Shown here piece after piece: positions 42,504 to 53,493 of a DNA stretch of 64,000 nt; within the stretch, counting starts at the first letter, position 1, and each line of letters opens with the position of its first letter. A model generated the notes under the pieces. The model ran no database searches and was not told the DNA's origin. It saw only the letters and a list, made by a program, of their open reading frames with translations. The position numbers were made by a program, and so were the translations under genes. Source of the stretch: Paracoccus aestuariivivens (GTDB lineage Bacteria > Pseudomonadota > Alphaproteobacteria > Rhodobacterales > Rhodobacteraceae); contig NZ_WMIE01000004.1 in NCBI RefSeq assembly GCF_009711225.1, positions 124,001 through 188,000 of the forward strand. The letters are read 5' to 3'.

Positions 42504-43421
42504 TCAGGACTGGACCCCGCCCATCGCGCGATCGGCCAACACAGCTGCCGAGGTGCGGTTATCGACGCCCATCTTTTCAAAGACCTGTTCCAGATGCTTG
42601 CTGACCGTGCGTCCGCTTAGCCCAAGAATGCTGCCGATATCGGTGTTGCTTTTGCCTTGGGTCAGCCAGAACAGGACCTCGGCCTCGCGGTCGGTCAGCC
42701 CGAAACGCTTCGACAGCAATTCCTCGCGCGGGTTGTCCCTGCGATCATGGATCGCCAGCAGTAGCTCCTGCGCTCCGCCCTGCCCGATATAGGTCAGTTC
42801 CAGCCGGTCCGAGATCAGTTTCTGCGCCTGCGATAGCGGCATCCGCCGCAATTGCCCCAGCCAGCCCAGCAGTTCACCCGCGGCATCGCCCTGAGAGGTC
42901 CGCCAAGCCAAAGGCGCCGTCTCCAACAACTCATGCGCCCGGGGCGAGGCCCATCCTAGTTCTCCGGTCAGCGAAAAAGCCGCGACGGCGCGGCTATTCG
43001 CGTCAAGCGCCCGCCTTGCGCTGGCCAGTTTCTGCGCGTTCAGCAAATGGATGCTCAGTCGCGCAATCAACTCGTCCAGATTCAAAGGTTTGGTGATGTA
43101 GTCGACGCCGCCCGCGCGCAGCCCTTCAAGAATATGCTCTGGTGCACCAAGACCCGTCATGAAAATTACCGGAGCCGCCTGCACCGATGGAAGGGCCTTG
43201 AGCAACCGACATGTCTGGAAACCGTCCAATCCCGGCATCATCGCATCCAGCAGAACGACATCCGGAACGACCCGCCCCGCAAGGCGCAACGCCGCCTCGC
43301 CGTCGCGGGCCGCCATGGCGGTGATGCCCGCCTGCTCGACCGCTTCGGCCACCATCATCAGCGAGGCCGGATCATCATCGACCACCAATGCGATGCTGCG
43401 GCTTTCGATGTCAGTCGGCAT
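42504..43421 (-). CDS. Response regulator with receiver and LuxR-type DNA-binding domain
   Basis: 305 residues from the ATG at 43421 (MPTDIESRS), overlapping the end of the sensor-kinase gene by 11 bases; longer starts inside the kinase gene are possible. The N-terminal receiver has acidic pocket DDD at 15-17, phospho-acceptor D59 in VVLLDAMMPGLDG and the lysine in YITKPLN. A middle segment (about 145-230) looks PAS-like. The C-terminus is a LuxR/NarL helix-turn-helix (LTDREAEVLFWLTQGKSNTD, then GRTVSKHLEQVFEKMGV). It is translated with the kinase and probably binds the palindrome at 46870-46887 to switch on the amide transport operon; that target is inference. Confidence 0.9.
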   Translation of the reverse strand: MPTDIESRSIALVVDDDPASLMMVAEAVEQAGITAMAARDGEAALRLAGRVVPDVVLLDAMMPGLDGFQTCRLLKALPSVQAAPVIFMTGLGAPEHILEGLRAGGVDYITKPLNLDELIARLSIHLLNAQKLASARRALDANSRAVAAFSLTGELGWASPRAHELLETAPLAWRTSQGDAAGELLGWLGQLRRMPLSQAQKLISDRLELTYIGQGGAQELLLAIHDRRDNPREELLSKRFGLTDREAEVLFWLTQGKSNTDIGSILGLSGRTVSKHLEQVFEKMGVDNRTSAAVLADRAMGGVQS

Positions 43422-46400
43422 CTTGGAAGACCGCACGGGCATAGTCATCGAGTGCATCAACAATCCTTTCGAAATCAACTTCCTGCAGCGCATCGCCAAG
43501 ATGGCGCGTCAGAGAAACGGGAAGAGGCAGTTGGGAAATACCCTCGCGCAACTCGCGGATGCGCCCCAACTCGGCCAGATAACGCAATTTGTCGATCTGG
43601 GCCGAGGTCACCTGCACTTCGGCCTGATCTGCGGGTGCCAGATCAGGCAGGACTGGCCTGCGTTCGATCTTGAGCAGGCTGTCTATCCGCGCACGCAAAT
43701 CATCCAGAATGCAGGGCTTGGCAATGAAGGCATCGTGAAGCGGGATCTCGGGCGCGCCGGATTGCGCCTCACGGGCATGCCCCGAAAGGACGATCACCGG
43801 CGTCGCGGCATGACCGTTGCTGCGCAGCCATTGCAGGAAATCCCATCCGCTCATGCCCGGCATGTCGATATCTATCAGGAACAGATCGGGCGTCGCATCG
43901 TCCAGGGCCTGCATGGCGGTCTCGGCATTGCCCGACAGCATCGTGTTGAAGCCCTGCGGCCGCAGATAGCTTTCCATCAGCGCCAGATGCGTCGGATCGT
44001 CATCGACAACCATCAAGAGCCGCAACCGCCCATCATAGGGCTCGGGCGAGGCGTTCTCGATCGGGTTTGTCTGCGCAGGCACGTTCCTCGTTTCGGCAAG
44101 GTACATTTTCAGACGGAACAGGCTGCCCTTCCCCGGCGTACTGGTGACCGAGACTTCACCGCCAAGGATATCGACCAGAAGCTTGGTGATTGTCAGCCCC
44201 AGCCCCGAGCCGTGGCGGGTCATGTTCGTGCCACGCTCAAACGGCTTCCAGATCCGCTCCATATCCTCGGGCGCGATCCCGATGCCGGTATCCTCGACCT
44301 CGATCGTCGCAACCTGATTGCGCCAACCGATCCGCAGTTTGACCTGCCCGTGATCGGTGTAGCGGAATGCATTGGCGAGCAGGTTAATGACGATCTGCCG
44401 CAGCCGTTTCTCGTCAACCAAGACCCATTCGGGCAGCGCGCCCATCCGTTCGATGACGAAATCCAGCCGACGTTCCCGCGCGGTTTCCTGAAAGATATCG
44501 GTAATCTGCCGCAACAGGTCGGGCAATTGGACGCGCGTCCGGTTCAACTCCAAGCGCCCTGCCTCGATCTTCGAGATATCCAGTAGGCCCTCGATCAGGC
44601 CGGCCAGATGCTCGCTTGAGCGCCGGATCGCCCGCACCGCCTCGCGCCGACCAAGCGGCATCGCGGCATCCGCGTCCATAAGCTGCGCATAGCCGTAGAT
44701 CGCGTTCAAGGGCGTTCGCAATTCGTGGCTGAGGCCCGCCATATAGCGTGATTTGGCAAGGTTCGCGGCCTCGGCTTTTTCCTTGGCCTCTTGTAGCGCG
44801 CGGTCGGTCCGTTCATGGGCGCGGATCTCGCGCAGCAGGCGTTCGGTCTGGCGTTCGGTGTCCCGTTGCGCAGCCAGCCGCGCCTCGCGGGTCAGCAGGA
44901 ACAGCCAGATCGCCACGCCGGAAGCCACCATGGTCGATGCCAGAATGACCGCAAGCAACGGGTCGAGCCGCGGCTCGTTCGCGGTGCGCCGGATCATCCA
45001 AAGCAGCGTTGCGACTCCGCCTGTCATGATCGTTGTGCCGATCAGGAACTGCGTCAGCCGGCCGTGCAGCAAGTGCTCAAGCCGTGTCGGCAGCATTTCC
45101 TGCGCGCGTGAGCGGGTCATTTGCCCCAGTTTGGCATGGGGCTTGCAAACGTCGCCACACGAGGCATTCAGCGAACAACACAACGAACAGATCGGGGCCG
45201 CGTAGAACGGGCAATGCGTCATGTCCTCGGGATCGAACCGGTAATCGCACAGGCAGCAGGTGATCAGCCCCGACGGAAGCTCGGCCGAAGGGCGCGCCAG
45301 ATAGTAGCGCCCCTGCGTTCCCCATGCGATCAGCGGAGCGATCACTATCGCTGCCCCCAATGCCACAAAGGCCGACAGCGCGCTGGGGTCAGCGCCGAAG
45401 GTGCCCACATGCGCCAGCAGCGCGATCAACGTGCCCCCGAATACCGCGCCTATGCCAACGGGATTGACGTCATAAAGATGGGCGCGACGAAACTCGATGC
45501 CCTTGGGCGACAGCCCCAACGGCTTGTTGATGGCCAGATCGGCAAACAGCGCCCCGATCCATGCCAGCGCGACATGGGCATAGACGGACAGCGTCGCCTC
45601 CAGCGCGGCAAAAACCCCCAGTTCCATCAGAAGCAAAGCAATGGCGACGTTGAAGAACAGCCAGACCACGCGGCCCGGATGGGCATGGGTGATGCGTGAA
45701 AAGAAATTCGACCACGCGATCGAACCGGCATAGGCATTGGTCACGTTGATCTTGAGCTGGGACAGGATCACGAACAGACCGGTCAGCAGCAAGGCGATCC
45801 CCGGCCAAGGGATCACCTGCGAATAGGCGTTATGATAAAGAAGCGTGGGGTCGATGGCATGGCTGAAATCGATTCCCTCGCTTTGCGCCAAAGTAACCAG
45901 CCACGATCCGGCCAACATCTTGAGCGTGCCGATGATGACCCAGCCCGGACCCGCCGCGATCAACGCGATCCACCAGCGTCGCCGTTCGGCTCTGGTTTTC
46001 GGCTCGGGCAGAAAGCGCAGGTAATCGACCTGTTCCCCGATCTGGGCGATCAGTGCCAGAACCACGCCCGAGGCCGCGCCAAAGGCCATGGTCGGGGTGA
46101 CAAGCGGACCCGCTGCGCCGTGGAATGCCTTACCCTGATAGCTGGTCCAAGGGTCCAGATCATAGCCCGAGAAAGCCAGCAACAGGAATGGCAGGACGTG
46201 CAGCACGATCCATAGCGGCTGGGTCAGCGCCTGAAAGGCCGAAATTTTCGAGAACCCGTTCACCACCAGCGGGATTACCGCCACAGCCGAAATCAGGTAG
46301 CCGATCGACAATGGAATGCCGAGTAACAGGTTCAGCGCCATGCCCAGAATGGCGGCCTCAAGCGCGAAGAAGATGAAGGTGAAGCTGGCGTAGATTAGCG

Positions 46401-46755
46401 AGGTGATGGTCGAGCCGAAATAGCCGAACCCCGCGCCCCTTGTCAGCAGGTCGATATCGACGCCGTAGCGCGCCGCGTAATAGGAAATCGGCATTCCGGT
46501 CAGGAACAGGATCAGCCCGCCCCACAGGATGGCTTGCAGCGCAATCTCGAAGCCCCAGTTCAGCGTGATTGCCGCGCCGATGGCCTCGAGCGCCAGAAAC
46601 GAGATCGACCCCAGCGCGGCATTCGCAACGCGGCCGGCCGTCCAGCGCCGCGCCCGCCTTGCGGTAAAGCGCAGGGCGAAATCTTCCATGGTCTCGTTCG
46701 CGACCCAACGGCTATAAAGCCGCCGCTCACGCGTCGCCTGAAAGGCCGTGATCAT
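43411..46755 (-). CDS. NCS1-type permease fused to hybrid histidine kinase and receiver
   Basis: 1114 residues from the ATG at 46755, chosen for GGAAGA upstream. Residues about 15-490 are a multi-helix domain like NCS1 purine/cytosine/hydantoin permeases (LGSISFLALEAIGAAITLNW, the broken-helix-like GAGFGYFGSTITSLIYASF, and QLKINVTNAYAGSIAWSNFF). Next comes a segment with nine cysteines (C500-C537), two more membrane helices (about 565-625), a coiled coil, the H-box with H677 (SHELRTPLNAIYGYAQL), the ATPase boxes (NLLANAFRYT, DTGIGIAPED, GSGLGLTITK), and a receiver with D962 (FLIDIDMPGMSG). A helical tail closes it. It resembles CbrA in plan (transporter joined to kinase) but with a different transporter family. 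It lies divergent from an amide/urea ABC operon, so its ligand may be urea or a small amide. Confidence 0.88.
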   Translation of the reverse strand: MITAFQATRERRLYSRWVANETMEDFALRFTARRARRWTAGRVANAALGSISFLALEAIGAAITLNWGFEIALQAILWGGLILFLTGMPISYYAARYGVDIDLLTRGAGFGYFGSTITSLIYASFTFIFFALEAAILGMALNLLLGIPLSIGYLISAVAVIPLVVNGFSKISAFQALTQPLWIVLHVLPFLLLAFSGYDLDPWTSYQGKAFHGAAGPLVTPTMAFGAASGVVLALIAQIGEQVDYLRFLPEPKTRAERRRWWIALIAAGPGWVIIGTLKMLAGSWLVTLAQSEGIDFSHAIDPTLLYHNAYSQVIPWPGIALLLTGLFVILSQLKINVTNAYAGSIAWSNFFSRITHAHPGRVVWLFFNVAIALLLMELGVFAALEATLSVYAHVALAWIGALFADLAINKPLGLSPKGIEFRRAHLYDVNPVGIGAVFGGTLIALLAHVGTFGADPSALSAFVALGAAIVIAPLIAWGTQGRYYLARPSAELPSGLITCCLCDYRFDPEDMTHCPFYAAPICSLCCSLNASCGDVCKPHAKLGQMTRSRAQEMLPTRLEHLLHGRLTQFLIGTTIMTGGVATLLWMIRRTANEPRLDPLLAVILASTMVASGVAIWLFLLTREARLAAQRDTERQTERLLREIRAHERTDRALQEAKEKAEAANLAKSRYMAGLSHELRTPLNAIYGYAQLMDADAAMPLGRREAVRAIRRSSEHLAGLIEGLLDISKIEAGRLELNRTRVQLPDLLRQITDIFQETARERRLDFVIERMGALPEWVLVDEKRLRQIVINLLANAFRYTDHGQVKLRIGWRNQVATIEVEDTGIGIAPEDMERIWKPFERGTNMTRHGSGLGLTITKLLVDILGGEVSVTSTPGKGSLFRLKMYLAETRNVPAQTNPIENASPEPYDGRLRLLMVVDDDPTHLALMESYLRPQGFNTMLSGNAETAMQALDDATPDLFLIDIDMPGMSGWDFLQWLRSNGHAATPVIVLSGHAREAQSGAPEIPLHDAFIAKPCILDDLRARIDSLLKIERRPVLPDLAPADQAEVQVTSAQIDKLRYLAELGRIRELREGISQLPLPVSLTRHLGDALQEVDFERIVDALDDYARAVFQDAD

Positions 46756-46793: not shown

Positions 46794-46869
46794 GGCCGCC
46801 CACGGTTTACTCCGCAGTGCAGCACGATTGTGGTGTGTCCTTAGCTTAGGGGGAAAATTGCGCAATTGA

Positions 46870-46887
46870 ATACGTCAGATGACGTAT
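46870..46887. promoter_or_regulatory. 18-bp palindrome between sensor and amide-transport operons
   Basis: ATACGTCA-GA-TGACGTAT has perfect 8-bp arms around two bases. It stands 82 bp before the start of the binding-protein gene and 114 bp before the kinase start, the only long palindrome in this 214-bp divergent region. It is the best candidate site for the LuxR-type response regulator encoded with the kinase. No clear sigma70 or sigma54 promoter could be matched beside it. Confidence 0.62.
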
Positions 46888-46969: not shown

Positions 46970-48235
46970 ATGACCGAAAAGACCCCGAAACCAACCTTTG
47001 CCGCCCCGTCGCGGCGGGCATTTCTGACCGCGTCGGCGGCGCTTTCAGCATCCCTGTTTTTGCCCAAAGGGCTGCGCGCTCAGGACTTTCCGACCGCAGC
47101 GGTCAACACCACCGGACTTGCCGTGACGGATACGGAAGTCACGGTCGGTATCCTGCATTCGGTCACCGGCACCATGTCGATTTCGGAAACCGGCTCGGTT
47201 CAGGCCGAAAAGCTGGCGATCGAGCAGATCAACAAGATGGGTGGCGTTCTGGGCCGCCAGATCAAGTTCGTGCAGGAGGATGGCGCCTCGGACTGGCCAA
47301 CCTTCGCCGAAAAAGCCCGCAAGCTGCTGGTCGATAACAAGGTTGCCTCGGTCATGGGGTGCTGGACCTCGGCCAGCCGCAAGGCCGTCCTGCCCGTGTT
47401 CGAGCAATATAACGGGATGCTGTATTACCCGACCTTCTACGAGGGGCTCGAACAGTCGCCGAACGTCATCTACACCGGCCAGGAAGCCACGCAACAGATC
47501 ATCGCTGGCCTTGACTGGGTAACCAAGACCAAGGGGGCCAAGTCCTTCTATCTGCTGGGCTCGGATTACATCTGGCCGCGCACCTCGAACAAGATTGCCC
47601 GCAAGCATATCGAGAAGCTGGGCCTCGAAGTCGTCGGCGAGGAATACTACCCGCTCGGTCACACGCAATTCAACTCGGTCATCAACAAGATCAAACTGAA
47701 GAAACCGGACGTGATCTACGCGATCGTCGTGGGCGGTTCGAACGTGGCCTTCTACAAGCAACTGAAGGCCGCGGGCATCGACATGACCAAGGAGAAGCCA
47801 CTTCTGCTGACCATCTCGGTCACCGAGGACGAAATCCTTGGCATCGGCGGCGAAAATATCGACGGCGCATATGCCTGCATGAAATACTTCCAATCGCTCG
47901 ACAACCCGAACAACGTCGATTTCGTCAAAGCCTTCAAAGAGATGTATGGCAACGACATCGTTATCGGCGATGTGACGCAGGCGGCCTATCTGGGGCCGTG
48001 GCTGTGGAAGGCCGCAGTTGAGAAGGCCGGCAGCTTCGACATCGACAAGATCAAGGAAGCCAGCCCAGGGATCGAATTGCCAACCGCCCCCGAGGGGTAC
48101 GTCAAGGTCCACGAGAACCACCACCTGTGGTCCAAGACGCGCGTCGGGCACGCTCAGGCCGACGGCCAGTACAAGGTTGTCTTCGAAACCTCCGATCTGG
48201 TCGAGCCCGATCCCTTCCCCGAAGGCTACCAGTAA
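46970..48235 (+). CDS. urtA: Urea/short-chain amide ABC transporter substrate-binding protein
   Basis: 421 residues from the ATG at 46970, with AGGAG upstream. A twin-arginine signal (SRRAFLTASAALSASLFL) sends it to the periplasm. The mature part is a family-5 periplasmic-binding fold (LivK-like) of the UrtA/FmdD/AmiC group: VGILHSVTGTMSISETGSVQ, ASVMGCWTSASRKAVLPVFE, NGMLYYPTFYEGLEQSPN and GSDYIWPRTSNKIARKHIE, all UrtA-like. Urea and short amides such as formamide are the known ligands of this group. With formamidase at the end of the operon, formamide is a strong candidate here. A stable hairpin follows the stop. Confidence 0.9.
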   Translation: MTEKTPKPTFAAPSRRAFLTASAALSASLFLPKGLRAQDFPTAAVNTTGLAVTDTEVTVGILHSVTGTMSISETGSVQAEKLAIEQINKMGGVLGRQIKFVQEDGASDWPTFAEKARKLLVDNKVASVMGCWTSASRKAVLPVFEQYNGMLYYPTFYEGLEQSPNVIYTGQEATQQIIAGLDWVTKTKGAKSFYLLGSDYIWPRTSNKIARKHIEKLGLEVVGEEYYPLGHTQFNSVINKIKLKKPDVIYAIVVGGSNVAFYKQLKAAGIDMTKEKPLLLTISVTEDEILGIGGENIDGAYACMKYFQSLDNPNNVDFVKAFKEMYGNDIVIGDVTQAAYLGPWLWKAAVEKAGSFDIDKIKEASPGIELPTAPEGYVKVHENHHLWSKTRVGHAQADGQYKVVFETSDLVEPDPFPEGYQ

Positions 48236-48270: not shown

Positions 48271-48331
48271 AACTGCGCCGGGCCGCATGGGTCCGGCGAC
48301 TTCTTTCCTGAATCCCGCCCGGAGGTGTGTG

Positions 48332-49258
48332 ATGTTCGCCGATTACAGCTGGGGCGAGCTCCTGTCGATTTTCGCGATGCAGGGCTTTGCCGGCCTTATC
48401 CTATTCTCGGTCTTCGTTCTGATGGCCTTGGGACTGGCGATCATCTTTGGCCAGATGGGCGTCATCAACATGGCTCATGGCGAGTTCATGATTCTGGGCG
48501 CCTATGTGACCTATCTGGTCTCGCGCCTGTTCGAGACCTATATGCCCGCACTTTTCGGGATCTATTTCTTCATCGCCATGGCGCTGGCCTTTGTCGTCGC
48601 GGGGGCCTTGGGGATGGTAGTCGAATGGACGCTGATCCGCAGGCTGTACAAGCGGCCACTTGACACGTTGCTGGCGACTTGGGGGCTGTCGCTGATCCTG
48701 CAGCAGCTTTTCCGCAGCGTCTTTGGCCCGCGCGAGGTCGGCGTCACCATTCCGCAATGGATGATGGGCTCGTTGCCACTGACCGACACGATCGAGGTTC
48801 CTATCAACGGGCTGTTCGTCATGGTGTTGGCGATGAGCATCTCGGCGGCAATCTATGTGCTGATGTTCCGGTCGCGCTGGGGGTTGCAGGTGCGCGCCGT
48901 GGTCGCGAACCGCACGATGGCAGATGCCGTGGGCATCAACACCGAGCGCACCGACCGCCTGACCTTCGGGATCGGCTGCGGGGTCGCGGGTGTGGCGGGC
49001 GCGGCCTTCACGATGATCGGATCGACCGGACCGACCTCGGGGCAGCTTTATATTGTCGATACATTCCTTGTCGTCGTCTTTGGCGGCGCGGGCAGCCTGA
49101 TCGGCACCATCGCCTCGGCTTTCTCGATCAGTCAGGCGCAGTCCATCCTTGAATTCTTCCTATCCGGCTCGATGGCCAAGGTTCTGACGCTGCTTGCGGT
49201 GGTCGGCATCCTGATGGTCCGGCCGCAGGGCCTGTTCGCCCTGAAACTGCGCAAGTGA
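48332..49258 (+). CDS. urtB: Urea/amide ABC transporter permease, UrtB type
   Basis: 308 residues from the ATG at 48332, with a strong GGAGG at 48321. LivH-like permease with about eight helices: FSVFVLMALGLAIIFGQMGV, then the family motif NMAHGEFMILGAYVTY, TLIRRLYKRPLDTLLATWGL, and a C-terminal AFTMIGSTGPTSGQLYIVDT and VVVFGGAGSLIGT. It forms the inner-membrane channel with UrtC. These motifs are those of UrtB rather than the leucine-type LivH. Confidence 0.92.
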   Translation: MFADYSWGELLSIFAMQGFAGLILFSVFVLMALGLAIIFGQMGVINMAHGEFMILGAYVTYLVSRLFETYMPALFGIYFFIAMALAFVVAGALGMVVEWTLIRRLYKRPLDTLLATWGLSLILQQLFRSVFGPREVGVTIPQWMMGSLPLTDTIEVPINGLFVMVLAMSISAAIYVLMFRSRWGLQVRAVVANRTMADAVGINTERTDRLTFGIGCGVAGVAGAAFTMIGSTGPTSGQLYIVDTFLVVVFGGAGSLIGTIASAFSISQAQSILEFFLSGSMAKVLTLLAVVGILMVRPQGLFALKLRK

Positions 49259-49268
49259 AAGGTAAGCC

Positions 49269-50402
49269 ATGACCGATTTTCCCTCTATGGCGACCGGACG
49301 CGACGGACGCTTCCTGAACCGGACCGAGATGCTGGGTGCTGCGGCGCTAGCCCTGCTGGTCTTTGTTCTGCTACCGCTCGCGCTTGATCCGTTCCGGCTG
49401 AACCTTTTCGGCAAATACCTGACCTATGCCTTTGTCGCGGTCGGCCTTGTGCTGTGTTGGGGCGCGGGCGGCATCCTTAGCCTTGGGCAAGGCATTTTTT
49501 TCGGTCTGGGCGGCTATGCGCTGGCCATGTTCCTGAAGCTCGAGGCCTCGACCCCCGAGGCCACAGCCATCCAATCCACCCCCGGCATTCCCGACTTCAT
49601 GGACTGGAACCAGATCACCGCGCTGCCGGGCTGGTGGCAGCCCTTCCATTCGCTGACATTCACCATCATCGCGGTGGTGGCGGTTCCGGTGATATTCGCC
49701 TTCATCATCGGCACGGCCATGTTCAGGCGCCGCGTGGGCGGGGTCTATTTCTCGATCATCACCCAAGCCATCGCCGCGATCCTAACCATCCTGATCATCG
49801 GCCAACAGGGCTATACCGGCGGCGTCAACGGCATCACCGACCTGCGCACGCTCAACGGCTGGGACATCCGCACGGATGAGGCCAAGACGGTGCTGTATTT
49901 CGTGAACGGCGCGCTGCTGTTCGGCTGCCTCGCGCTGGCGCAATTCGTTCGCCGCTCGAAGCTGGGCCGCATCCTGATTGCCATGCGCGACCGCGAGGAT
50001 CGGGTGCGCTTCTCGGGCTATGACGTGGCATCCTTCAAGATCTTCGTCTTCTGCCTTGGCGCTGCTTTCGCGGCCATCGGCGGCGCGATGTTCACCCTGC
50101 AGGTCGGCTTCATGTCCCCGAGCTTCGTCGGCATCGTCCCCTCGATCGAGATGGTGATCTTCTGCGCGGTCGGCGGGCGCAACTCGATCCTTGGCGCGGT
50201 CTGGGGCACGCTTCTGGTCAACTGGGCCAAGACCACCTTCTCGGAAGGTTTCCCCGAGCTCTGGCAATTCGGCATGGGCGCGCTGTTCATCGCCGTGGTG
50301 CTGGTCTTCCCCGATGGGTTGGCCGGGCTGTGGAAACAGCATGTCGAGCCGCTCTTCGCGCGCCTCAAGCCCCGCCCCTCTGCCCCGCAGCCAGCCGAAT
50401 GA
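49269..50402 (+). CDS. urtC: Urea/amide ABC transporter permease, UrtC type
   Basis: 377 residues, LivM-like. Its long N-terminus carries LLPLALDPFRLNLFGKYLTY, then GLVLCWGAGGILSLGQGIFF and FGLGGYALAMFLKLEA, all typical of UrtC. Further helices follow, with FSIITQAIAAILTILI and the ATPase-contact region VRFSGYDVASFKIFVF, ending GGRNSILGAVWGTLLVNWAK. It starts 10 bases after urtB and overlaps urtD by an ATGA junction. Third positions become strikingly rich in G/C towards the end of this gene and in those after it. Confidence 0.93.
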   Translation: MTDFPSMATGRDGRFLNRTEMLGAAALALLVFVLLPLALDPFRLNLFGKYLTYAFVAVGLVLCWGAGGILSLGQGIFFGLGGYALAMFLKLEASTPEATAIQSTPGIPDFMDWNQITALPGWWQPFHSLTFTIIAVVAVPVIFAFIIGTAMFRRRVGGVYFSIITQAIAAILTILIIGQQGYTGGVNGITDLRTLNGWDIRTDEAKTVLYFVNGALLFGCLALAQFVRRSKLGRILIAMRDREDRVRFSGYDVASFKIFVFCLGAAFAAIGGAMFTLQVGFMSPSFVGIVPSIEMVIFCAVGGRNSILGAVWGTLLVNWAKTTFSEGFPELWQFGMGALFIAVVLVFPDGLAGLWKQHVEPLFARLKPRPSAPQPAE

Positions 50403-51160
50403 GTGCCGCAATGTCTGACAGCAAAGACGCCTTCATCCTGACGGTCGAGGACCTGACGGTTTCCTTCGACGGGTTCAAGGCGGTGAACGGGCTGAACTTC
50501 TATGTCGAGCCCAACGAATGCCGCGTCATCATCGGCCCGAACGGCGCGGGCAAGACGACCGTGCTGGACCTGATCTGCGGGCGCACCAAAGCCACCGGAG
50601 GCTCGGTCCAGTTCAAGGGGCAGGAGCTGCTGAAAATGCGCGAGGATCAGATCGTCCATGCGGGCGTCGGGCGCAAGTTCCAGAACCCCTCGGTCTATGA
50701 GGATCTGACGGTCTTCGAGAATCTCGAGATCTCGTATCCGCGCGGCTATTCGGTCTTCGGCGCACTGGCCTTCCGCCGCGATCAGGCGGTGCGCGACCGC
50801 ATCGCCGAGATTGCCGAGATCATCTTCCTGCAGAACCATCTGCAGGAAAAGGCCGCCTATCTGAGCCACGGCCAGAAGCAGTGGCTGGAAATCGGCATGC
50901 TGCTCATCCAGGACCCCGAGCTTCTGATGCTGGACGAGCCGGTCGCGGGCATGTCGGTGGCCGAGCGGGTCAAGACCGCCGAACTGCTGAACCGCATCAT
51001 CGCCGACCGCTCGGTCATCGTGATCGAGCACGACATGAAATTCGTCGAGGACATCGCGACCCGCGTCACGGTCCTGCATCAGGGCAAGCTGCTGGCCGAG
51101 GGCTCGATGGCCCATGTCCAGGCCGATCCCAAAGTCATCGAAGTCTATCTGGGCCATTGA
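50399..51160 (+). CDS. urtD: Urea/amide ABC transporter ATP-binding protein, UrtD type
   Basis: 253 residues from the ATG at 50399 that overlaps the urtC stop; the ATG at 50411 is an alternative. Walker A is GPNGAGKTT, the signature is LSHGQKQWLEIGMLL (the SHGQKQWLE form is a mark of UrtD, against LSGGQ in most ATPases), and Walker B is LLMLDEPVAGMS. The LivG-like GVGRKFQNPSVYEDLTVFEN is present. It pairs with UrtE to energise uptake. Confidence 0.95.
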   Translation: MSAAMSDSKDAFILTVEDLTVSFDGFKAVNGLNFYVEPNECRVIIGPNGAGKTTVLDLICGRTKATGGSVQFKGQELLKMREDQIVHAGVGRKFQNPSVYEDLTVFENLEISYPRGYSVFGALAFRRDQAVRDRIAEIAEIIFLQNHLQEKAAYLSHGQKQWLEIGMLLIQDPELLMLDEPVAGMSVAERVKTAELLNRIIADRSVIVIEHDMKFVEDIATRVTVLHQGKLLAEGSMAHVQADPKVIEVYLGH

Positions 51161-51169
51161 GGGGGCATC

Positions 51170-51859
51170 ATGCTTGATATCGCGGAACTGCGCTCGGCCT
51201 ACGGCGAAAGCGAGATCCTGCACGGGATGTCGATGTCCGTCCCCAAGGGCCAGATCGTCGCCATCATGGGCCGCAACGGCATGGGCAAGACCACGCTGAT
51301 GAAGACCCTGATGGGCATCGTGCCCACGAAATCCGGCTCGATCCGGGTGGGCGACAAGGACGTGACGGCCATGAAGCCGCATGAGCGCGTCGCCTCGGGC
51401 ATCGCCTATGTGCCGCAGGGGCGGATGATCTTCAGCGCCATGACGGTGCAGGAGAATGTCGAGACCGGCCTGACCGTCACCGGCGAGAAAACCGTGCCGC
51501 CGGACATTTATGAGCTGTTCCCGGTGCTGCTTGAGATGAAGAACCGCCGCGGCGGGAACCTCTCGGGCGGTCAGCAGCAGCAATTGGCCATCGCGCGGGC
51601 CTTGGCCTCGAAGCCCAAGGCCCTGCTGCTGGACGAGCCGACCGAGGGCATCCAGCCCTCGATCATCCGCGAGATGGCCCGCACGCTCCGCCGCATCCGC
51701 GACGAGCGCGGGTTGACCATCATCGTGTCCGAGCAGGTGCTGAGCTTCGCCCTCGATGTCGCCGACCGCGTGATGGTCATCGAGAACGGCGAGATCGTCC
51801 ATGACGCCCCCCGCGAGGGCATCGACGAGGCGAAAATCGCCCGTTTCCTATCCGTTTGA
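51170..51859 (+). CDS. urtE: Urea/amide ABC transporter ATP-binding protein, UrtE type
   Basis: 229 residues, LivF-like: Walker A GRNGMGKTT (the GMGKTT variant is usual in UrtE), GIAYVPQGRMIFSAMTVQEN, signature LSGGQQQQLAIARAL, and Walker B ALLLDEPTEGIQPSII. It lies 9 bases after urtD and its stop is followed in 20 bases by formamidase. All five parts of the importer are therefore present and intact. Confidence 0.95.
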   Translation: MLDIAELRSAYGESEILHGMSMSVPKGQIVAIMGRNGMGKTTLMKTLMGIVPTKSGSIRVGDKDVTAMKPHERVASGIAYVPQGRMIFSAMTVQENVETGLTVTGEKTVPPDIYELFPVLLEMKNRRGGNLSGGQQQQLAIARALASKPKALLLDEPTEGIQPSIIREMARTLRRIRDERGLTIIVSEQVLSFALDVADRVMVIENGEIVHDAPREGIDEAKIARFLSV

Positions 51860-51879
51860 CGCCAAAAGGGAGATTACAA

Positions 51880-53109
51880 TTGGCCGATACCCTGATTTCC
51901 GTGGACCTTTCCGAGAGCCCGCTCACCAACGAAAAGATCCACAACCGCTGGCATCCCGACATTCCGATCGCCTGCTGGGTCGAGCCCGGCGACGAGTTCA
52001 AGATCGAGTGCTATGACTGGACCGGCGGCCAGATCAAGAACAATGACGACGCCTCGGACGTTCGCGATGTCGAGCTTGAGCAGGTCCATTACCTCTCTGG
52101 CCCCATCGGCATCAAAGGCGCCGAGCCGGGCGATCTTCTGGTGGTCGAAATCCTCGACATCGGTGCCAAGGAAGAGATGCAATGGGGCTTCAACGGCTTC
52201 TTCTCCAAGCAGAATGGCGGCGGCTTCCTGACCGAGCATTTCCCCGAGGCGCAGAAGTCGATCTGGGATTTCCACGGCATGTTCACCAAGTCGCGCCACG
52301 TTCCGGGCGTGAAATATGCCGGTCTGATCCATCCCGGCCTGATCGGCTGCCTGCCCGACCGCAAGATGCTGGACATGTGGAACTCGCGCGAGAAGGATCT
52401 GTTCGACACCGATCCGACCCGCGTTCCGGGCCTTGCGAACCTGCCCACCACCAAGGCCGCCCATATGGGCGCGATGAAGGGCGAGGCGCGTGAGAAAGCC
52501 GCAGCCGAGGGCGCACGCACCGTTCCCCCGCGCGAGCATGGCGGCAACTGCGACATCAAGGACCTGTCGCGCGGCTCGACGATCTATTTCCCGGTCTATG
52601 TCCCCGGCGCAGGCCTTTCGATGGGCGACCTGCATTTCAGCCAGGGCGACGGCGAGATCACCTTCTGCGGCGCGATCGAGATGGCGGGCTGGCTGCACCT
52701 GAAGGTCAGTCTGATCAAGGACGGGATGCAGAAATACGCCATCAAGAACCCGATCTTCAAACCCTCGCCCATCGTGCCGAAATATGACGACTACCTGATC
52801 TTCGAGGGGATCTCGGTCGATGAGGGCGGCAAGCAGCATTACCTTGACGTGCAGATCGCCTATCGGCAGGCCTGCCTGAACGCGATCGAATATCTGAAGA
52901 AATTCGGCTATTCCGGCGCTCAGGGCTACGCGATCCTCGGGACCGCGCCGGTGCAGGGCCATATCTCGGGCGTGGTCGACGTGCCGAACGCCTGCGCGAC
53001 GCTCTGGCTGCCGACCGACATCTTCGATTTCGACCTGAAGCCGAATGTGAACGGCCCGACCAAGATGCTGGACGGCTCGGTCGACATTCCGCTGGCCCCC
53101 GATCTGTAA
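51880..53109 (+). CDS. fmdA: Formamidase
   Basis: 409 residues from a TTG at 51880 with AGGGAG upstream; a TTG at 51856 that overlaps the urtE stop would add eight residues. It belongs to the acetamidase/formamidase family, hydrolysing formamide to formate and ammonia in the cytosol. Family sequence is strong throughout: SPLTNEKIHNRWHPDIP, GDEFKIECYDWTGGQIKNND, VHYLSGPIGIKGAEPGDLLV, REHGGNCDIKDLSRGSTIYF, GDLHFSQGDGEITFCGAIEM and GYAILGTAPVQGHISGVVD. Codon third positions are almost all G or C, suggesting high expression. Its place after urtABCDE makes uptake and hydrolysis one unit. Confidence 0.95.
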   Translation: MADTLISVDLSESPLTNEKIHNRWHPDIPIACWVEPGDEFKIECYDWTGGQIKNNDDASDVRDVELEQVHYLSGPIGIKGAEPGDLLVVEILDIGAKEEMQWGFNGFFSKQNGGGFLTEHFPEAQKSIWDFHGMFTKSRHVPGVKYAGLIHPGLIGCLPDRKMLDMWNSREKDLFDTDPTRVPGLANLPTTKAAHMGAMKGEAREKAAAEGARTVPPREHGGNCDIKDLSRGSTIYFPVYVPGAGLSMGDLHFSQGDGEITFCGAIEMAGWLHLKVSLIKDGMQKYAIKNPIFKPSPIVPKYDDYLIFEGISVDEGGKQHYLDVQIAYRQACLNAIEYLKKFGYSGAQGYAILGTAPVQGHISGVVDVPNACATLWLPTDIFDFDLKPNVNGPTKMLDGSVDIPLAPDL

Positions 53110-53163: not shown

Positions 53164-53493
53164 ATGCCCACCTATGATTTTATCTGCAATGATTGCGGGC
53201 CGTTCGAGGCCCACGCCGCCATGGCCGATTTCAACAAGCCGCACGACTGCCCGTGGTGCGCGACCCCGGCACGCCGCGCCATGCTGACCGCGCCTTTGCT
53301 GGGCAATATGGATGCGGGCCGCCGCAAGGCTCATGCCACGAACGAACGCAGCGCGGATACCCCCCGCCGCTCGCACGGCTCGGGTTGTTCATGCTGTTCG
53401 GCAGCGGCGAAAAAGAAACCGTCGGGAACCTTGCATCGCCCCGACGGCTCGAAAAGCTTTCCCGCGAAACGCCCTTGGATGATCTCGCACTGA
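53164..53493 (+). CDS. fmdB: FmdB-family zinc-ribbon protein
   Basis: 109 residues. The N-terminal zinc ribbon uses two CxxC pairs: CNDC (MPTYDFICNDCG) and CPWC (HDCPWCATPARR). A flexible middle contains CSCC, and the C-terminus SKSFPAKRPWMISH is like that of FmdB proteins beside formamidase genes. FmdB was named as a possible regulator of the formamidase operon in methylotrophs, but its molecular role is not established. It is probably the last gene of the urt-fmd operon; an inverted repeat follows 10 bases later. Confidence 0.87.
   Translation: MPTYDFICNDCGPFEAHAAMADFNKPHDCPWCATPARRAMLTAPLLGNMDAGRRKAHATNERSADTPRRSHGSGCSCCSAAAKKKPSGTLHRPDGSKSFPAKRPWMISH

Follow-up and report, generated by a model that had tools for sequence, protein, structure and literature searches.

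The window analysed here, a stretch of 64,000 nucleotides from Paracoccus aestuariivivens (contig NZ_WMIE01000004.1, positions 124,001 to 188,000 of the forward strand), encodes a hybrid histidine kinase whose N-terminal part is an NCS1-like permease domain. The kinase gene is followed by the gene of a LuxR-type response regulator and stands divergently to the operon urtABCDE-fmdAB, with a palindrome between the two transcription units (Table 1). An earlier note, made from the letters of the sequence alone, had proposed that a single gene joins an NCS1-type permease domain to a complete kinase and a receiver beside an amide or urea operon. We examined the gene, its relatives and their neighbourhoods, and we weigh here the reading that the permease fold serves as a sensor of urea and/or short-chain amides.

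The permease-kinase gene and its locus

The kinase is encoded by one unbroken open reading frame (ORF) with an ATG start, from which all residue numbers are counted. An alternative GTG start at 46803 would lengthen the protein by 16 residues, and alignments of homologues start mostly at or after the ATG-coded residue. HisKA, HATPase_c and the receiver, with their catalytic residues, all score above the Pfam cut-offs, so that the protein has every part of a hybrid histidine kinase, and the motif positions H677 and D962 agree with those that the earlier note had given. That note's two helices between permease and kinase also appear in the structure model (residues 566-592 and 597-638), but it had overlooked the module of eight cysteines in front of them. 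A fusion of two genes by sequencing or assembly, named there as a possible refutation, is excluded because homologous open frames of the same length, about 1100-1370 residues, recur in many genomes. A 475-residue ORF at window positions 43159-44586 (+), antisense to kinase and regulator, is probably an artefact of high GC composition.

The ATG of the regulator gene overlaps the stop codon of the kinase gene by 11 bp. On the other side of the palindrome, the products of urtABCDE and fmdA exceed the NCBIfam cut-offs for the urea ABC transporter subunits and formamidase, and FmdB likewise scores above cut-off, which bears out the divergent amide/urea operon of the earlier note. Elsewhere in the same genome, on other contigs, we noted a match to the urease alpha subunit (C1:309311-309664, 191.9 bits) and one ordinary PF02133 carrier (C7:51474-52688, 204.5 bits).

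Table 1. Features of the kinase locus in window coordinates.
Feature	Position	Strand	Evidence and remarks
Response regulator	42504..43421	-	Receiver and LuxR/GerE helix-turn-helix; 305 aa; PF00072, PF00196
Kinase, whole gene	43411..46755	-	NCS1-like domain, eight-cysteine module, two helices, HisKA, HATPase_c, receiver (REC), C-terminal tail; 1114 aa from ATG
Receiver domain	43684..44013	-	D962; PF00072, 68.7 bits
HATPase_c	44104..44415	-	PF02518, 90 bits
HisKA	44557..44757	-	Phospho-acceptor H677; PF00512, 61.8 bits
Two further helices before the kinase	44896..45060	-	Residues ~566-620, the second helix extending to 638; secondary structure of the model
Eight-cysteine module	45136..45261	-	Residues ~499-540: C500, C503, C515, C523, C526, C527, C533, C537
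NCS1-like permease domain	45301..46698	-	Residues ~20-485; AlphaFold model, best matches CodB and Mhp1; hhalign columns 21-482 or 24-473
Palindrome TACGTCAGATGACGTA	46871..46886	.	Between divergent kinase and urtA; proposed operator
urtA	46970..48235	+	TIGR03407, 547.7 bits (cut-off 492.75)
urtB	48287..49258	+	TIGR03409, 410.9 bits
urtC	49269..50402	+	TIGR03408, 443.4 bits
urtD	50330..51160	+	TIGR03411, 376.8 bits (residues 36-276); ORF from a GTG, the actual start likely ~100 bp downstream
urtE	51170..51859	+	TIGR03410, 336 bits
fmdA	51856..53109	+	Formamidase; NF045496, 763.6 bits (cut-off 500)
fmdB	53164..53493	+	FmdB-family zinc ribbon protein; TIGR02605, NF053663

The permease domain and the cysteine module

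The AlphaFold model, built from a 43-sequence alignment, has a mean predicted local distance difference test score (pLDDT) of 86.8 and a predicted template modelling score (pTM) of 0.89. Its top two Foldseek matches are CodB (E 1.1e-9) and Mhp1 (E 2.7e-9). VIA-align placed CodB at Z 34.1 (root-mean-square deviation (rmsd) 3.2, 397 aligned residues) and Mhp1 at Z 27.5-29.9 (rmsd 3.9 and 433 aligned residues for the best), with other LeuT-fold carriers at 24.7 or below and SSS carriers at about 21-23; among the matches listed there was no family outside the LeuT-fold carriers, which does not imply the exclusion of others. The top matches in a viral fold library were generic amino-acid-transporter folds. 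The comparison of profiles, which covered NCS1 and SSS among the LeuT-fold families, pointed the same way. Residues 1-490 matched a set of 11 NCS1 proteins with 99.6% probability in hhalign (E 1.3e-23, 425 columns), the same set without the nearest relative, P0001, with 99.0% (E 7.2e-18), and CodB plus four other NCS1 proteins with 96.5% (E 8.3e-10). Sixteen SSS proteins gave 0.5% (E 0.13), on which ground we reject an SSS identity, and an SSF match was absent from the Pfam scans of the kinase and its aligned members. Moreover, stand-alone permeases form a bridge to the family. The domain is 44% identical to a 559-residue stand-alone Streptomyces permease with the database name allantoin permease, and that permease shares 26% identity (E 6e-24) with P0001, which comes from Paracoccus and exceeds the PF02133 cut-off. 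Thus, the earlier assignment to NCS1 rather than SSS stands, and by sequence and model the N-terminal domain is best placed in a divergent NCS1-like branch.

The predicted transport sites differ from those of the classical carriers. We mapped the CodB residues named in the consulted part of PMC9379551 onto the kinase through two hhalign alignments, which agree except in transmembrane helix 6 (TM6). In these alignments, Q105, W108, N280, R216 and Y285 of CodB correspond to T126, F129, N337, R247 and Y342. The sodium ligands of the Na2 site on TM8 (CodB T278 and T279) are replaced by K335 and I336, position 335 being lysine in 84 of 86 aligned rows and arginine in two rows of one stand-alone NCS1 gene. 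The earlier note had left it to a structure prediction whether the sodium sites are kept; this is unlikely because the alignment puts Lys335 and Ile336 where CodB has its two threonines. A lysine, K196, is also found at the Na2 site of CbrA (PMC13022988, consulted in part).

The aromatic sandwich is missing as well: the TM3 tryptophan is F129, and CodB F204 on TM6 aligns to V232 or L235, with an uncertain register. Its absence would fit a small non-aromatic ligand. Near the modelled break of TM6, Q238, G240, E241 and Q242 are invariant in the 43 aligned members. Together with K335, N337 and N340 on TM8, the polar residues of this set (Q238, E241, Q242) suggest, in the alignment and the model, that a polar site has been kept.

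Between the permease fold and the two helices lies the pattern C500-x2-C503-x11-C515-x7-C523-x2-C526-C527-x5-C533-x3-C537. All eight cysteines are present in 84 of the 86 aligned rows, and the remaining two rows, which belong to one gene, have C500, C503, C523 and C526 only. In 11 stand-alone permeases the tail holds four cysteines (two Acinetobacter, Klebsiella and Moraxella), five (two Streptomyces), one or two (three Arthrobacter and Tsukamurella) or all eight (Methylovirgula). Folded alone, the module gave a weak model (pTM 0.54), and its best match (E 0.58) was not significant, in a list made up mostly of RING, PHD, FYVE and LIM domains. The module is probably cytoplasmic and zinc-binding.

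Relatives, gene neighbourhoods and the palindrome

Relatives of the kinase are encoded in at least 585 of 596 pattern-matched GTDB contig stretches; for genomes outside Pseudomonadota, the survey consists of this search and a plasmid collection. The flanks of the best 80 of these loci contain UrtA in 77 cases, the regulator in 76 and FmdA in 70, and several of the misses are contig ends; these top matches are biased towards close kin, a bias that an even draw of 397 Pseudomonadota genomes does not share. In that draw, 66 genomes have a relative, one of which (G293) matches the last 119 profile positions only. We reduced the 74 match rows to 70 places (L130-L199), leaving out the own genome, a second fragment in genome G394, a 552-residue frame (L200) and the G293 match (L201). 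Close urt genes together with fmdA adjoin the kinase in 38 places, close urt genes only in two, more distant urt genes in 17 and fmdA only in two, and the regulator directly follows the kinase in 61. At one of the distant urt loci, the UrtA model scores 565 bits, above its cut-off of 492.75. With urt and/or fmdA in 59 of the 70 neighbourhoods, the linkage to urea and amide genes that the earlier note had read from one locus holds in general, and the fusion is not mostly found far from such genes. Conversely, a close FmdA (E 1e-100 or better) occurs in 44 of the 397 genomes, and the kinase is found in 43 of these (the exception is G173) compared with 23 of the 353 others; the Fisher p-value of 1.6e-39 is only a guide because the sampled genomes are related.

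The locus also occurs on plasmids. The permease domain is matched by 342 Klebsiella plasmid records. At one such kinase locus, urtABCDE and a formamidase gene adjoin, and the regulator homologue and an exact palindrome are kept. A P. liaowanqingii plasmid carries a homologue 70% identical to the kinase in the same gene layout. Paralogues of the kinase that have a regulator but lack a good palindrome, and in whose flank we found no urt operon or fmdA, were recorded at L173, L179, L184, L185, L191-L194 and L199; a few neighbouring genes at L173, L184, L192 and L199 were scanned with NCBIfam and Pfam models and showed no common target. In another genome of the same genus (L203, 8577-11513), the matches of a homologue are split over frames, possibly by breakage or sequencing errors, and an FmdA homologue (66%) lies nearby. 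An 891-residue frame with an NCS1 match (L212) showed no kinase H-box in a pattern search.

The subfamily's stand-alone permeases have telling neighbours. We examined 13 loci of 18 matches (H71-H88), three of them being near-identical Acinetobacter urease loci. In eight of the 13 (L258-L263, L296, L297), the permease gene has urease, fmdA or aliphatic amidase genes as neighbours: it lies immediately before the urease genes in the three Acinetobacter loci, directly after ureG in Klebsiella, adjacent to fmdA in Moraxella, near fmdA with two genes between in Tsukamurella, and adjacent to an aliphatic amidase gene in Arthrobacter U41 and Methylovirgula. The proteins are annotated as allantoin permease, cytosine permease or hypothetical, and the consulted part of a paper on the Acinetobacter urease leaves the permease unmentioned (PMC8472584). 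The Methylovirgula locus has a row of genes for kinase, regulator, stand-alone permease and amidase, with fmdA-fmdB divergent and urtA reduced to an 87-residue match. Urea and short-chain amides appear to be the common denominator of these neighbourhoods, which provide the strongest clue to the ligand and make the subfamily a candidate for urea and short-amide permeases.

In a quick tree, 11 stand-alone permeases form a clade (SH-aLRT 98), and the kinases of L004/L203 and L196/L197 fall outside the main kinase clade. A second kinase type was found at L004:1294-4038, L196:8202-10883, L197:8266-10962 and L202:8810-11557, where L004 and L202 are the same gene. Here the same permease-cysteine module (45-54% identity) is followed by a shorter, different kinase, whose own part shows 27-29% identity. 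L004 has no receiver by Pfam, and length and sequence suggest the same for L196 and L197. At L202, L196 and L197, fmdA adjoins and no urt operon was found in the flank. The sensor module would appear to have been fused to kinases on more than one occasion or else exchanged, and the tree is compatible with both. Separately, a 559-residue stand-alone NCS1 permease with a four-cysteine tail and arginine at the Na2 position (L006:538-2211 and L204, genome G010) lies outside the urea/amide branch, with a UrtA-like gene (32%) nearby.

The palindrome reads TACGTCA-N2-TGACGTA. The pattern TACGT-N6-ACGTA occurs once in the 4.56-Mb genome, compared with three copies of the reversed control pattern. We searched 700 bp upstream of the genes at 152 loci, a set from which three short loci were dropped and which counts one stand-alone NCS1 gene twice, as L006 and L010, and one stretch twice, as L018 and L146. 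The best match had zero, one and two mismatches at 39, 39 and 39 loci, i.e., at most two at 117 of 152, where shuffling predicts 0.05, 0.75 and 12.35 loci, an expectation that overstates independence because the counts come from related genomes. In the phylum sample, a palindrome with at most two mismatches precedes the kinase at 36 of 38 loci with close urt genes and fmdA, at one of two with close urt genes only, and at one of ten scorable loci without urt genes; the last, L141, has its contig end about 0.4 kb upstream, and FmdA is encoded on another contig of that genome. The plasmids examined from Klebsiella, Chelatococcus, Paraburkholderia and P. liaowanqingii have exact copies between the kinase gene and urtA, and in Methylovirgula a copy with one mismatch precedes the aliphatic amidase gene by about 140 bp. 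No copy within one mismatch was found at L202. The palindrome is likely the operator of the response regulator, because it is the sole copy in its own genome and recurs at 117 of 152 loci; its distribution is as expected for the regulator's own site.

A candidate sensor of urea and short-chain amides

Our preferred reading, to which we assign a probability of roughly 0.68, is that the protein is a membrane sensor kinase in which an NCS1-like fold has been re-used to recognise urea and/or short-chain amides such as formamide and acetamide, driving urtABCDE-fmdA through its LuxR-type partner. Regulation of urt-fmdA by the kinase-regulator pair is likely, and urea or an amide is the best inference for the ligand. 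In the proposed mechanism, the permease fold would bind the ligand at its TM3/TM6/TM8 site, and the resulting rearrangement would pass through the cysteine module and the two helices to the HisKA dimer. H677 would be phosphorylated, and the phosphate would reach the co-encoded regulator, either directly or via the internal receiver. The regulator would then bind the palindrome and activate urtABCDE-fmdAB and perhaps its own gene. Our results cover the domain make-up, the predicted fold, conservation, co-occurrence and the recurring palindrome, and from these we infer which ligand and metal are bound, in which direction the genes are regulated and which protein binds the palindrome.

Known sensor kinases offer close parallels, described here from the consulted parts of the papers. 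In the SLC5/STAC kinases CbrA, CrbS/MxtR and RpuS, a LeuT-fold permease is joined to a kinase, a hybrid one in some (PMC9100948, PMC5715377, PMC13022988, PMC7918813), and they share with our protein the partner regulator and the link to nutrient genes. They differ in that their permease is of the SSS type, in having STAC (and PAS) where the eight-cysteine module and two helices stand here, and in the signal, which here would be urea or an amide. Pfam scans gave no STAC match, although the presence of a STAC model in Pfam is unconfirmed. CbrA, the precedent named in the earlier note, is indeed an SSS-fold transporter-kinase, but it is not the only one: in Ks-Amt5 of Kuenenia stuttgartiensis, an ammonium transporter is fused with a kinase (PMC5764959). 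Like the Paracoccus protein, Ks-Amt5 uses the fold of a nitrogen-solute transporter as kinase input, in its own case without HAMP, PAS or STAC; unlike it, Ks-Amt5 has the trimeric Amt/Rh fold and ammonium as ligand, and the parts of the paper that were available mention no cysteine module (PMC5764959). By analogy, our kinase may work like CbrA/CrbS and Ks-Amt5, yet it is a member of neither group. With the carriers CodB, Mhp1 and MetT it shares the fold, the TM8 asparagine and the arginine-tyrosine pair, whereas it lacks the Na2 threonines and the TM6 aromatic, has phenylalanine for the TM3 tryptophan and is fused to a kinase. MetT demonstrates that NCS1 carriers accept non-nucleobase substrates (PMC13390362, in part).

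According to the consulted account of fmdCABDEF in Methylophilus methylotrophus, formamide and urea induce formamidase and the genes of amide/urea uptake, and that account names a putative positive regulator only, with no sensor kinase mentioned (PMC10781810). Similar fmdA-urtABCDE clusters, called 'UTS', are described from Pseudomonas, Ectopseudomonas and Klebsiella, with no mention of an NCS1 domain, cysteine module or operator in the sections seen (PMC13296017, PMC13209695, PMC13060141); the paper on Ectopseudomonas depicts a hybrid kinase and a LuxR regulator beside urtABCDE-fmdA, with no comment on the sensor in those sections (PMC13296017). Within the open-access literature, our search, which did not extend to subscription journals, found no description of an NCS1-kinase fusion, and in the part of PMC8399564 that was seen NCS1 appears solely in a thesis title.

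Several observations weigh against the urea/amide reading. Its statements on ligand, phosphorylation and transcription rest on sequence and model. NCS1 (Pfam family PF02133, TC 2.A.39) is not matched at the gathering cut-off by the N-terminal domain or by any of the 43 aligned members, whose Pfam scans gave weak, unrelated matches only; we therefore use the label NCS1-like for a divergent branch, and the profile match to NCS1 for which the earlier note had asked came from the profile-profile comparison. Likewise, hmmsearch with the domain profile against PDB sequences returned no NCS1 chain and only two chance zinc-finger matches. The palindrome lies upstream of the kinase at only six of 17 loci with more distant urt genes and at neither of the two with fmdA only, and a second paralogue in Thioclava (L097) lacks a copy within one mismatch. 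Five of the 13 stand-alone loci (L095, L250, L294, L295, L298) have no urease, formamidase or amidase gene in the examined flank. Finally, neither urt nor fmdA was found in the examined flank of 11 of the 70 kinase places, two of which (L141, L198) are on contigs ending beside the gene; most of these places belong to one family (f69), outside the class of the window, and lack a good palindrome. Because of them, the kinase family need not all sense the same thing.

A stronger form of the preferred reading, not exclusive of it, is that the permease domain also carries urea or an amide at a useful rate and that the kinase is driven by this flux, not by binding alone. The full permease fold and the conserved residues common to the stand-alone permeases speak for such a true transceptor, as does the SSS domain of CbrA, which transports histidine (PMC13022988, PMC7918813, each in part). 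We nevertheless consider it possible rather than likely, given the dedicated ABC importer encoded next door, the loss of the Na2 ligands and the precedent of Ks-Amt5, which according to the consulted text lost transport on becoming a sensor (PMC5764959).

The eight-cysteine module could instead be the main sensor, of metal, redox state or through an iron-sulphur cluster, with the permease fold as an anchor or minor input. The near-invariance of its cysteines would agree with this, and ten of the 11 stand-alone relatives have one to five tail cysteines, as though the others had been gained together with the signalling role. The Methylovirgula permease, however, has all eight while standing alone, numerous positions in the permease domain are conserved just as strictly, and the genes that co-occur are those of amide and urea use. 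This explanation therefore appears improbable to us. Still less credit is due to the idea that the kinase senses, through contact, what state the UrtABCDE transporter is in, the permease fold being a docking surface. It would account for the tight linkage to urt, but the Methylovirgula kinase stands beside fmdA with a mere remnant of urtA, and no urt operon was found in the flank of the second-type kinases at L196, L197 and L202. The least probable alternative, a plain sensor of nucleobases, hydantoin or allantoin like classical NCS1 carriers, with urt and fmd responding as part of general nitrogen scavenging, draws on the fold and on the database names of the relatives but is disfavoured by the substitutions of the sandwich aromatics and by linked genes for urease, formamidase and aliphatic amidase, within a bounded flank beyond which purine genes are possible.

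Beyond the single gene, we hold a wider proposal to be slightly more probable than its opposite. A so far unnamed branch of NCS1-like permeases, in which the sodium site has a basic residue and the cytoplasmic tail mostly bears cysteines, would carry or recognise urea and short-chain amides. Some of its members stand alone next to genes for urease and amidases; others, fused with kinases of at least two clearly different types, would form a general urea/amide sensor of Pseudomonadota that works through a conserved palindromic operator. On how bacteria sense urea and small amides to induce formamidase and the urea importer, the part of PMC10781810 consulted reports induction by formamide and urea and names a putative regulator only. 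If our reading is right, NCS1 would join the permease families re-used as kinase sensors, SSS and Amt being among those described. The finding also singles out a family of proteins, at present listed as allantoin or cytosine permeases, as candidate urea/amide permeases, and the compact operator could be used for tests and for biosensors of urea and formamide. Taken together, our analysis suggests that the permease-derived urea/amide sensor is a common yet apparently unnamed type of sensor in bacteria.

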